In this document: positions 18,501 through 21,697 of the stretch, in pieces
Numbering within the stretch: position 1 is the first letter of the stretch
Layout: each line of letters begins with the position of its first letter
Assembly (NCBI GenBank): GCA_027920525.1
Contig: CP115858.1
Location: 2,046,001-2,110,000 of the forward strand
DNA length: 64,000 nucleotides
Source of the DNA: Chryseobacterium daecheongense
Lineage (GTDB): Bacteria > Bacteroidota > Bacteroidia > Flavobacteriales > Weeksellaceae
Direction: 5' to 3'
Made by a program: the position numbers and the translations under genes
Notes under the pieces: model-generated
What the model saw: only the letters and a program-made list of their open reading frames with translations
Database searches by the model: none
What the model was told of the DNA's origin: nothing

Positions 18501-18553
18501 AGAAAATAATCAGCCAGTTTCCTGATTGAATTCTTACAATAGAAAAAACTTTC

Positions 18554-18561
18554 TATCTTTG
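18554..18561 (+). promoter_or_regulatory. -7 box of the tyrS leader transcript
   Basis: TATCTTTG matches TAnnTTTG, 8 nt before the leader-peptide ATG. A TTG at 18526-18528 lies 25 nt upstream, which is longer than the usual spacing, so the -33 element is uncertain. Confidence 0.6.
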
Positions 18562-18569
18562 CTGTTCAT

Positions 18570-18668
18570 ATGAAACATTTAAACAGCATATTACGTCTTC
18601 CTTTCTTTAATAAGTATTATTACCCGATGTACTGTTCGGGAAGACTGTCTATGTGTATAATTCAATAA
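18570..18668 (+). CDS. Tyrosine-rich leader peptide of tyrS
   Basis: A 32-codon ORF carries the core PFFNKYYYPMYC: three consecutive Tyr codons (18615-18623), two Phe before them and a fourth Tyr after. It starts just downstream of a -7 box and ends 72 nt before tyrS. Its Tyr codons sit directly before three RNA pairing segments and an intrinsic terminator. The arrangement matches ribosome-mediated attenuation: a ribosome waiting for Tyr-tRNA would stop on these codons. The role is inferred from layout and not demonstrated. Confidence 0.75.
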   Translation: MKHLNSILRLPFFNKYYYPMYCSGRLSMCIIQ

Positions 18669-18720
18669 CAAAATATTAATTAATTATATAGAGCCCGAAC
18701 ATTATAGTTCGGGCTTTTTT
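18623..18720 (+). promoter_or_regulatory. Transcription attenuator of tyrS (anti-antiterminator, antiterminator, terminator)
   Basis: Segment 1, cccga (18623-18627), pairs with tcggg inside segment 2 (18636-18640). Segment 2, tgttcggg (18633-18640), pairs with all 8 bases of segment 3, cccgaaca (18694-18701). Segment 3 also forms the terminator gcccgaac (18693-18700) with gttcgggc (18707-18714), followed by T6. A ribosome stalled on the Tyr codons covers segment 1, frees segment 2 and favours the 2:3 antiterminator. A ribosome that reaches the stop codon lets 1:2 reform and the 3:4 terminator form. Confidence 0.8.
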
Positions 18721-18740
18721 AATGCAAAATTTTAAAAGAA

Positions 18741-19940
18741 ATGATTCATTTATTACAAGAAAATGTGGAAATTATTTTACCACAAAACGGTCTGGAAAAA
18801 AAATTACAACAGGCTAAAGACGAAAACAGGAAACTAAACATCAAACTGGGATTCGATCCTACTGCTCCGGACCTGCATCTCGGACACGCTGTTGTTCTAA
18901 AAAAACTCAGACAATTTCAGGATCTGGGACACCGGATTATTATTGTTGTCGGAAGTTTTACAGCAAGAATTGGGGATCCTACAGGAAAAAACAAAGCACG
19001 AAAACCGCTAAGCACCAAAGATGTTAATGACAATGCCCAAACTTATATCGATCAGCTATCTAAAATAATTGATATTAAAAAAACAAAAATTGTTTTTAAT
19101 TCCGATTGGTTGGATCATTTGAACTTTTCTGAAGCGATCGGATTGCTTTCAAAAGTAACTGTAGCCCAGTTAATGCACAGAAACGACTTCAATAAAAGAT
19201 TTTCGGAAAATACACCTATTGCGATGCATGAACTTGTATACCCTATTTTACAAGGATTTGATTCCGTAAAGATTGAATGTGATATCGAAATGGGAGGAAC
19301 TGACCAGCTTTTCAACTGCACAATGGGTAGACAATTACAGGAAGTGTATGGGCTTTCACCACAGATTGTGATGTGCCTGCCTTTATTAAAAGGACTTGAT
19401 GGAAAAGAAAAAATGAGCAAATCACTACATAATACCATTGGCCTGACAGATGAACCCAATGAGATGTTTGGAAAAACAATGTCTATTCCTGATTCTTTAA
19501 TCGAAGAGTTTATGAATCTCACCACAGACTTTTCGGCTGTTGAAAAACAGAATTTGAAATCGAGGATGGAAAACGGAGAAAATCCCATGAATATTAAAAA
19601 GTTACTTGCTAAAAATATTATTACTCAATACCATGACGAGTCTTCAGCAAAAAGAGCAGAAGATTTTTTTGCTAATCAGGTTCAAAATAAAAACTTTGAA
19701 GAAAAGACATTCAAACCTGTTGGTATTGATTCCCTGCATCTCTCGGAAAATTATGTCCTTCTTACAGATTTGTGTCACCAGCTTAAGAGTGATCTGAGTA
19801 AATCAGCTATAAGGAGATTGATTGAAAATGGAGGAGTACAGATTAATCAGGAGAAAATAACAGATATCGATCGAAGAATTGAATTGAAAGGAGGCACCAA
19901 AATCAAAATCGGAAAAAGATTTTTTTTCGAACTTTTTTAA
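18741..19940 (+). CDS. tyrS: Tyrosyl-tRNA synthetase
   Basis: This 399-residue class I synthetase charges tRNA(Tyr). The HIGH motif appears as HLGH in FDPTAPDLHLGHAVVLKKL. The KMSKS loop is seen in DGKEKMSKSLHN. The Tyr-binding region has MGGTDQLFNCTMGRQLQ, and a C-terminal S4 RNA-binding domain ends the protein (SKSAIRRLIENGGVQINQ). The PTAPDLHLGH form and the length resemble the TyrZ subclass rather than the E. coli TyrS type, so this may be a second, regulated TyrRS. That subclass call is inference. Expression is probably set by the upstream Tyr leader and attenuator. A GNAT gene follows. Confidence 0.95.
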   Translation: MIHLLQENVEIILPQNGLEKKLQQAKDENRKLNIKLGFDPTAPDLHLGHAVVLKKLRQFQDLGHRIIIVVGSFTARIGDPTGKNKARKPLSTKDVNDNAQTYIDQLSKIIDIKKTKIVFNSDWLDHLNFSEAIGLLSKVTVAQLMHRNDFNKRFSENTPIAMHELVYPILQGFDSVKIECDIEMGGTDQLFNCTMGRQLQEVYGLSPQIVMCLPLLKGLDGKEKMSKSLHNTIGLTDEPNEMFGKTMSIPDSLIEEFMNLTTDFSAVEKQNLKSRMENGENPMNIKKLLAKNIITQYHDESSAKRAEDFFANQVQNKNFEEKTFKPVGIDSLHLSENYVLLTDLCHQLKSDLSKSAIRRLIENGGVQINQEKITDIDRRIELKGGTKIKIGKRFFFELF

Positions 19941-20424: not shown

Positions 20425-20452
20425 AAAAAGTATGCTTTTCAGCATACTTTTT
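20425..20452. terminator. Bidirectional terminator between the GNAT and TerD genes
   Basis: Arms aaaaagtatgc (20425-20435) and gcatacttttt (20442-20452) pair perfectly. T runs on both strands serve the convergent genes. Confidence 0.85.
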
Positions 20453-21119
20453 ATTTATACGTATAAGGCACCAGAACATCTATAAAATTATCCGTACTGT
20501 AAGGATCTCCTATTGCCCTGAATTTCCAGTCTCCATGATGGCGATATGCTTCAGCAAAAACCATCGAGCACATGCCATTCATACTGCTATCTCCGGAAAG
20601 ACTATATTTTGTAATTTCTTTTCCTCTTGCATCAACCGCTCTGATAAAAGCATTATCAATCATTCCGAAATGCTGTCTGTTGGTCCTTCCCTGATATATA
20701 GACACGACAAAAATTATCTTTTGATAACGTTCGTTTAATTGATCCAGCTTCACTATAATCTGTTCATCATCTCCATCGCCTTCCCCTGTTCTATTATCAC
20801 CCGTCAACCAGATGTGACCTGAAGGATGACGCATCGAATTAAAGTAAATAACATCACTTTCATAAAGCACAACCTGTTTTCCATTATGCCCATGAAGAGT
20901 TCTTCCCATATCAGCAACTTTCCCGTTTTTATCCAGAAGAAAAGCAACAGCATCGAGATCATATTCGGGTTCATTGCTGAATAACCTCCCAAAGAAACCT
21001 CCCTGCTTGCGAACGTCCCAACCCAATCCGATAGTGACCTGAGAAAGATCATAAACGCTTTCACCAAGATTGTTTTTCCTGAGATCTATCGTTTGGCCTT
21101 TTTGTAAATTAATTGCCAT
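20451..21119 (-). CDS. TerD family protein, longer copy
   Basis: This 222-residue protein opens MAINLQKGQTIDLRKN and shows VTIGLGWDV, the acidic strand YDLDAVAFLLDKNGKVAD and the loop DNRTGEGDGDDEQIIVKLDQL, whose Asp-rich segment is the calcium-binding site of TerD/TerE proteins. It has an insertion after GWD (RKQGGFFGRLFSNEP). TerD proteins act in tellurite, phage and stress responses, but the biochemical activity is not settled. It lies 2 nt after its paralogue, so both are in one operon. Confidence 0.9.
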   Translation of the reverse strand: MAINLQKGQTIDLRKNNLGESVYDLSQVTIGLGWDVRKQGGFFGRLFSNEPEYDLDAVAFLLDKNGKVADMGRTLHGHNGKQVVLYESDVIYFNSMRHPSGHIWLTGDNRTGEGDGDDEQIIVKLDQLNERYQKIIFVVSIYQGRTNRQHFGMIDNAFIRAVDARGKEITKYSLSGDSSMNGMCSMVFAEAYRHHGDWKFRAIGDPYSTDNFIDVLVPYTYK

Positions 21120-21121
21120 TG

Positions 21122-21697
21122 TTATTTAATGATTTGCCCTTTATAATATTTTTCAAGGAAGAAAGAAAGGTCTGCCCTGTAACCAATTCCGGAAGCCTCA
21201 AATTTCCAGCTTCCATTCCTCTTGTATAACCTGCCGAACTCGATTCCCGTTTCTATAGAAAAATCCTCATCCAGTTCATATTTGGCGATTTCCTGGTTGC
21301 TATTATTATCAATGATCCTGATATATGAATTTCTTACCTGACCAAAATTTTGTTTTCTTCTTTCAAAATCTTCGATGGTAACCACAAAGAGTATTTCTTC
21401 TACTCTTCCATCAACTTTTTCCAAATCGATAATAATAGATTCATCATCATCCCCGTCACTGTTCTTTCCACTCGGATCATCACCTGTATGAGTCAATGCG
21501 CCATCCGGAGAGCTTAGATTGTTATAAAAAACAAAATAATCTTCACTTACAAGTTTTCTTTCCGCATCGATCATAATTGCAGAAGCATCAAGATCAAAAT
21601 CATATCCTCTTCCATCATTAGGATCCCATCCTAGTCCAATCGTTAGTTTTGTTAATCCTATATCTATTCTTTGTCCTTTCTGTAGGTTAATTGCCAT
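21122..21697 (-). CDS. TerD family protein, shorter copy
   Basis: This 191-residue TerD domain has MAINLQKGQRIDIGLTKLTI, GLGWDPNDGRGYDFDLDASA and the Asp-rich loop DPSGKNSDGDDDESIIIDLEKV. It is the first gene of the two-gene terD operon. No terB, terC or vWA partner gene is found in the window, so this is a minimal ter locus or part of one scattered elsewhere. Confidence 0.9.
   Translation of the reverse strand: MAINLQKGQRIDIGLTKLTIGLGWDPNDGRGYDFDLDASAIMIDAERKLVSEDYFVFYNNLSSPDGALTHTGDDPSGKNSDGDDDESIIIDLEKVDGRVEEILFVVTIEDFERRKQNFGQVRNSYIRIIDNNSNQEIAKYELDEDFSIETGIEFGRLYKRNGSWKFEASGIGYRADLSFFLEKYYKGQIIK

Follow-up and report, generated by a model that had tools for sequence, protein, structure and literature searches.

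In the trp, his, phe and pheST attenuators, a leader peptide with codons for the cognate amino acid precedes RNA segments that compete to form 1:2, 2:3 and 3:4 helices, together with an intrinsic terminator. The same plan can be read upstream of a tyrosyl-tRNA synthetase (TyrRS) gene of Chryseobacterium daecheongense. It differs from those systems in its Tyr sensor, its second TyrRS as target, an N-terminus conserved at the peptide level, a transcript start that appears to be near-leaderless and a weak 1:2 helix. Chryseobacterium also possesses a His leader of the MKPNFLTVHHYHHHLC type before hisG.

Another means of control that resembles the present one is that of the auxiliary TrpRS1 of Streptomyces, which Vecchione and Sello reportedly found in 2010 to be under leader-peptide attenuation. 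TrpRS1 gives resistance to indolmycin according to a passage of PMC9437257. In both systems, the amino acid of a second synthetase copy would govern that copy through ribosome-mediated attenuation; the present one differs in amino acid and phylum. Signs of attenuation before trpS and leuS of Streptomyces are also described in part of PMC1262725.

Extra TyrRS genes under tRNA-Tyr-dependent antitermination are known as well, in that tyrZ of B. subtilis is described as controlled by a T box and MarR (a section of PMC9437257) and tyrS of E. durans by a T box (the abstract of PMC3315439). In those genes, however, tRNA is bound by the T-box RNA, whereas in the present case the proposed sensor is a translating ribosome, and the same logic would therefore be reached by another route. 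Closer to home, Flavobacterium psychrophilum, of the same class of bacteria, has amino-acid operons preceded by signs of leader-peptide attenuation and synthetase genes preceded by structured 5′ UTRs, and the section of PMC9723704 devoted to them names neither an auxiliary tyrS nor a Tyr leader. Among the papers listed by literature searches, none dealt with a Tyr leader of the present kind, and little was found on such charging control in Bacteroidota; a 2010 attenuation survey by Lopatovskaya and others may include relatives.

As far as sequence can show, an auxiliary TyrRS gene is indeed preceded by a conserved Tyr attenuator. It probably operates as a ribosome-mediated transcription attenuator that senses the charging of Tyr-tRNA and controls a reserve, TyrZ-like TyrRS. 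The part most worth following is the conserved nascent peptide.

A tyrosine leader and probable attenuator before an auxiliary tyrS

The window analysed here is a stretch of 64,000 nucleotides (CP115858.1, positions 2,046,001 to 2,110,000) from a genome of 4,858,345 bases in a single contig. Between an upstream ORF that we take to be quinone-reductase-like and tyrS lie, all on the plus strand, a promoter box, a 32-codon leader and an attenuator, and the presence of the latter two before tyrS is confirmed. The box, TATCTTTG, is of the Bacteroidota -7 type (TAnnTTTG) and occupies 18554–18561. The leader ORF, MKHLNSILRLPFFNKYYYPMYCSGRLSMCIIQ, runs over 32 codons plus a stop (18570–18668), and its codons 16–18 (TAT TAT TAC, 18615–18623) are the putative sensor codons, so that the initial annotation of a 32-residue ORF with three consecutive Tyr codons can be read directly in the sequence.

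Segment 2, TGTTCGGG (18633–18640), is the 5′ arm of the antiterminator, and segment 3, CCCGAACA (18694–18701), is common to antiterminator and terminator. The intrinsic terminator spans 18692–18720, with a stem of 18692–18700 (AGCCCGAAC) and 18707–18715 (GTTCGGGCT) and a run of six T (18715–18720), as previously claimed, although nine pairs are possible rather than the eight first given. The 1:2 pairing had been described as a 5-bp helix between CCCGA (18623–18627) and TCGGG (18636–18640). This holds as an inner part, but not as the whole, since a longer, competing outer helix between GTCTTCC (18595–18601) and GGAAGAC (18639–18645) appears in the MFE fold.

The region as a whole (18554–18740) has a fold z-score of -4.73, with none of 200 shuffles equally stable. 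A simple terminator scan of the region did not list the terminator at 18692–18720, and our guess is that extension of the stem consumes Ts of the T-run. A T-box riboswitch was rejected, since no Rfam family reached its gathering score in the whole window, and NCBIfam holds no model for the leader. There are no tRNA genes in the window. Two neighbouring ORFs on the minus strand (20451–21697) presumably encode TerD-family stress proteins.

The product of tyrS (18741–19940, 399 aa) matched TIGR00234 at 343 bits against a cut-off of 113.8, and its translation contains HLGH and KMSKS, which we take to be the HIGH-type and KMSKS motifs of such enzymes. Its best relatives of solved structure are 6bqy, 6byq and 1h3e, presumably Acinetobacter- and Thermus-type enzymes, and the clade of the auxiliary TyrRS is assumed here to be TyrZ. 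While the proposed linkage of the attenuator to a Tyr-tRNA synthetase thus stands, it has to be amended, as this tyrS is a second copy and not the only TyrRS gene: the same genome has a second TyrRS match, 28% identical to the window's enzyme. In this genome, that other TyrRS gene has a promoter box and no such leader in the preceding 320 nt.

Within the genus, the window-type tyrS occurs in 102 of 148 genomes and is absent from 46, and every one of the 102 carriers (a number that includes one partial copy, one broken copy and one with an internal stop in the match: G021, G112 and G138, respectively) has two TyrRS matches. The same is true of genomes of the family outside the genus with a strong leader match: all 18 that were checked have both kinds of TyrRS, the second match being 28–32% identical. 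Carriage of tyrS on plasmids was considered and rejected, since the best plasmid match was 50% identical and none of 133 records reached at least 60%.

Conservation and folding of the control region

Loci for comparison included those of the best 80 of 142 relatives and, from the genus, those of 30 of the best matches, one of them the window's own genome. Of 211 loci, 118 distinct upstream sequences, the window's own included, were retained after removal of those whose TyrRS was less than 55% identical to that of the window, of sequences identical to another over the 200 bases nearest the gene, and of one locus (L209) with only 136 nt of upstream sequence, in which a truncated leader is visible. 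The leader was found before all 118 of these window-type tyrS genes; the motif used to find it fixes some of its residues, and no upstream region failed the motif. Tyr16 is kept in 118/118 and Tyr17 in 117/118, as the attenuator model predicted for relatives, while Tyr18 is present in 39/118. A single Tyr codon (Y16, followed by L17) occurs in L206.

The helices were compared in 40 representatives less than 88% identical to one another. The six core pairs of the 2:3 antiterminator are formed in 240/240 cells and its two outer pairs in 19/40 and 27/40 sequences, and at one core pair U-A is replaced by C-G in 14, a change matched in the terminator. The 3:4 terminator is paired in 99.7% of cells, with two-sided change at 6/9 pairs, and in 40/40 sequences its stem is followed by 5–8 T within 8 nt. 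For both 2:3 and 3:4, the numbers of paired cells and of cells with two-sided change and the covariation score exceeded all 500 shuffles and the slid controls, figures to be read with the caveat that kinship among sequences can beat shuffles without any structure. For 2:3, neither the count of pairs with two-sided change (3 vs 2.5) nor that of further pair types rose above the shuffles, and in the test covering 3:4 and 1:2, the measure of further types was reached by 69/500 shuffles.

The 1:2 pairing is the least conserved part. Its outer helix is paired in 81.4% of cells, with two-sided change at 3/7 pairs, the two pieces of the inner helix are paired in 78.3% and 68.9% of cells, and the RNAalifold consensus contained the terminator only, with neither 1:2 helix and nothing paired within the leader codons. 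The check for compensatory changes in relatives bore out 2:3 and 3:4, each with changes on both sides. Two features of ribosome-mediated transcription attenuators, namely an antiterminator and a terminator that exclude each other through a shared arm and a short ORF in which codons for the regulated amino acid follow one another, are both present.

The 30 nt that precede the leader start contain an exact TAnnTTTG in 74/118 sequences and in 34/40 representatives, as compared to 1.3% of shuffles, and in 72 of the 74 it stands 5–9 nt before the start. Among the 44 sequences without an exact box, TAnnTTTA was present in 25 of the 40 listed. Since the Bacteroidota box spans -12 to -5 (as given in a section of PMC9723704), transcription would begin near 18566, with a 5′ UTR of about 4 nt, making the transcript near-leaderless. 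A palindrome, CAGGAAATTCCTG, lies by the promoter box of some relatives, for example just upstream of L089:1333, and a different one, ATAGAAAAAACTTTCTAT, is found at about 18547–18556 in the window. An operator palindrome near the promoter was rejected as a general feature: arms of at least 5 occurred in 69/118 sequences against 37% of shuffles, among related sequences, and the palindromes are not common to different lineages.

The probability of the 2:3 helix, P(2:3), was computed in 40 sequences for a transcript cut after segment 3, with a ribosome footprint moved along the leader. Mean P(2:3) was 0.99 when the A site contained codon 16, and 0.95, 0.81 and 0.19 for codons 17, 18 and 19, respectively, falling to 0.00–0.01 for codons 20–28. 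For a stall at codon 16, P(2:3) was at least 0.5 in 40/40 sequences with three of four footprints and in 35/40 with the fourth; the alternative footprints move the edge by one or two codons, and the smallest moves the optimum to codons 18–19. In silico, then, a stall on the control codons frees segment 2 and onward movement blocks it, the Tyr codons sitting just upstream of the point where the ribosome would itself hide segment 2. Stalls upstream of the Tyr codons, at codons 8–14, also free segment 2 (means 0.82–0.98, depending on the footprint). The sharp downstream edge is therefore the robust result and there is little upstream specificity, and it is conceivable from the folding that Phe shortage or a general slowing of translation could be further inducers.

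When the ribosome was placed on the stop codon, P(2:3) was at least 0.5 in 19/40 sequences (0.89 in the window), and without any ribosome it ranged from 0.00 to 1.00 (0.79 in the window). In full transcripts, the terminator had a probability of at least 0.5 in 40/40, with a mean of 0.99. Because 2:3 continues to prevail in 19/40 when the ribosome has reached the stop codon, 1:2 alone would leave the switch unshut at equilibrium in about half of the sequences, and the OFF state must come from cover of segment 2 by the ribosome, from the order of events during transcription, or from displacement by segment 4. The ribosome-constrained folding suggested at the outset thus gave the ON state at codons 16–17 and a blocked 2:3 once segment 2 was covered, but in 19/40 sequences, the window included, no OFF state brought about by 1:2 at the stop codon. 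The overall plan of a trp/his/phe-type attenuator, as first proposed, is supported by the kept Tyr codons, the covarying 2:3 and 3:4 helices and the footprint folding.

In the mechanism that we favour, a near-leaderless transcript would begin a few bases upstream of the ATG of the leader. With ample Tyr-tRNA, the ribosome would pass codons 16–17 and either cover segment 2 while segment 3 is made or end translation, letting 1:2 form; segment 3 would then pair with segment 4, and transcription would stop short of tyrS. A shortage of Tyr-tRNA, as might follow from inhibition or starvation of the housekeeping TyrRS, would halt the ribosome while codon 16 or 17 occupies the A site, leaving segment 2 free, whereupon 2:3 would form, the terminator would be pre-empted and the spare TyrRS would be made. 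At such a stall, the exit tunnel would contain LNxILRLPFF, which may prolong the pause or fix its position.

The leader peptide and the rival explanations

The attenuator model, while supported by sequence and folding, leaves one feature unexplained, which is the conservation of the leader as a peptide. The start codon stands exactly 15 codons before Tyr16 and exactly 7 codons before the LRLPFF motif in all 118 sequences (116 ATG, 2 GTG). Leu8, Pro11 and Phe13 are found in 118/118, Arg9 in 117/118 and Phe12 in 115/118, the other three having Tyr. In the 40 representatives, pN/pS was 0.170 for codons 4–13 (LNSILRLPFF in the window, 18579–18608), 0.080 for codons 7–13 and 0.069 for codons 8–13, as compared to 0.207 for the whole of tyrS, 38/133 of whose seven-codon windows are as low; with pS near saturation, all such figures serve for comparison only. 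Third positions are the most variable, even within segment 1, and the distinct codon variants of codons 7–13 comprise 14 synonymous against 6 nonsynonymous, where 24% synonymous would be expected (p 1.6e-5). Downstream of the Tyr codons, pN/pS rises to 0.88 at codons 18–21 and 2.07 at codons 22–26 (18 Chryseobacterium-type leaders), and in codons 22–26 RNA pairing dominates.

The His leader before hisG offers a comparison within the genus. A short peptide of this kind, MKPNFLTLHHYHHHLC, is found in the window's own genome (L219) and likewise at other Chryseobacterium hisG loci, and from 30 loci, 16 leaders could be aligned, 13 having none by pattern and one being not alignable. In this set, pN/pS was 0.466 for codons 2–8 (0.211 for codons 2–5 and 0.751 for codons 5–8), against 0.090 for codons 2–13 of the Tyr leaders of the genus. 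The low pN/pS, the synonymous excess and the comparison with the His leader together indicate that it is the protein sequence of the leader N-terminus that is conserved, a fixed number of codons ahead of the presumed stall codons. Judged from its sequence, this part is conserved far beyond the normal need of such switches. Conservation at the amino-acid level at a fixed distance from the stall site is expected of nascent-chain arrest leaders and is seen here, and, with Tyr16 in the A site, residues 4–13 would by ribosome geometry occupy the upper exit tunnel. A contribution of the nascent chain is plausible but unproven.

How the peptide and the codons are to be reconciled admits several answers. 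We tentatively entertain a hybrid of attenuator and arrest peptide, in which LNxILRLPFF would prime the ribosome such that a slight loss of Tyr-tRNA charging produces a long stall at codons 16–17, forming a portable and self-contained alarm through which a spare TyrRS that tolerates poisons or is more selective would be turned on. If true, this would parallel the T-box control of Firmicutes tyrZ, with the ribosome as the reader. It is also possible, though rather doubtful, that the switch is a plain trp/his-type attenuator whose N-terminus is conserved through constraints on RNA or initiation and not through the nascent chain. Codons 9–11 indeed double as segment 1 of the outer 1:2 helix, and a near-leaderless start could restrict the early codons, those at positions 2–5 of the His leader being fairly constrained too. 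The pattern of substitution points the other way, however, since third positions are the most variable ones even inside segment 1 and, at codons 7–13, synonymous variants prevail over nonsynonymous ones, while RNAalifold pairs nothing within the leader codons and codons 2–8 of the His leader are less constrained. Selection on the peptide could, conversely, be taken to mean that the leader is an arrest peptide proper, in which LNxILRLPFF stalls the ribosome on a small molecule such as a translation or TyrRS inhibitor and the Tyr codons do no more than mark the stall site. The constraint on the N-terminus, comparable to that of the enzyme's more conserved stretches, and its invariant distance from Tyr16 would suit this explanation, which we nonetheless consider unlikely, since with the Tyr codons nearly invariant and the gene a TyrRS, Tyr-tRNA charging is the simplest signal.

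Less likely still is a leader that senses aromatic amino acids or the speed of translation generally, through Phe12-Phe13 together with Tyr16-Tyr17. The two Phe residues are as good as fixed, and stalls at codons 12–14 free segment 2 too, but Leu8, Arg9 and Pro11 are equally invariant and the regulated gene acts on Tyr only. That a chance ORF happens to precede an ordinary intergenic terminator has a negligible probability: the simple scan of the region found promoter- and terminator-like sites to be in no excess, yet the arrangement is conserved over several families with changing neighbours, and its helices covary. The attenuator with its conserved peptide provides a testable case of a leader in which codons and peptide are both apparently selected, bringing together two mechanisms that are mostly considered separately. 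A further suggestion is that the spare synthetases of different phyla share a charging logic through different sensors, and the attenuator offers a natural reporter of Tyr-tRNA charging for Bacteroidota.

Distribution and linkage of the leader-tyrS unit

The leader and tyrS are conserved together across several families, Chitinophagaceae among them, and the gene was found in Flavobacterium, Arenibacter, Gelidibacter, Vaginella, Weeksella, Faecalibacter and Gynurincola among the best 80 of 142 relatives. In the family, tyrS adjoins the leader at 45/45 matches with E up to 1.6e-9. Of 395 genomes of the order, 22 carry the window-type tyrS, all of them from the genus, and these account for 22 of the 23 genomes with a leader. 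Beyond the genus the gene is rare, and of 296 genomes of the class only the window's own has it.

A search of 295 genomes of the class with a profile of the leader gave seven at E up to 0.01, which are the window's own genome, G365 and five at 0.002–0.01. In G365, which has no auxiliary tyrS, two identical ILRLPFFSKYY frames (L242, L248; E 1.1e-6) follow CACTTC repeats. They were rejected as leaders, having no start codon and preceding an ORF that we take to be four-helix-bundle-like. Control of other genes of the window's genome by a shared leader was similarly rejected, as the LRLPFF-type codon pattern occurs there at six places and only that of the window is leader-like.

The genes around the unit differ between genera. 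A gene that we assume to be acetyltransferase-like lies downstream of tyrS in 44 of the 77 loci compared, and conserved operon partners were rejected, since 11 of the 14 listed neighbour clusters had none of the 16 non-Chryseobacterium loci checked, the other three having Flavobacterium loci. In C. tagetis, gene and leader are of the Flavobacteriaceae type (tree support modest, 91/92). Because the neighbours differ between genera and C. tagetis has a unit of the Flavobacteriaceae type, leader and tyrS seem to move together as a cassette.

The leader and the gene can also be found in decay. The 23rd leader genome of the order, G109, has a decayed leader, MKTLNNILLLTFSPYYYRVIFARRRCAYL, with a truncated terminator arm on the minus strand (G109:C1:540409-540495, in L207) and no window-type tyrS, apparently a remnant from a unit that lost its gene. 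Conversely, in G112, a strain of the window's own species, the leader is intact (from about position 496 of L208) and the auxiliary tyrS is broken, with a match to residues 1–116 only and four TAA codons inside, and the auxiliary tyrS is therefore dispensable in some strains.
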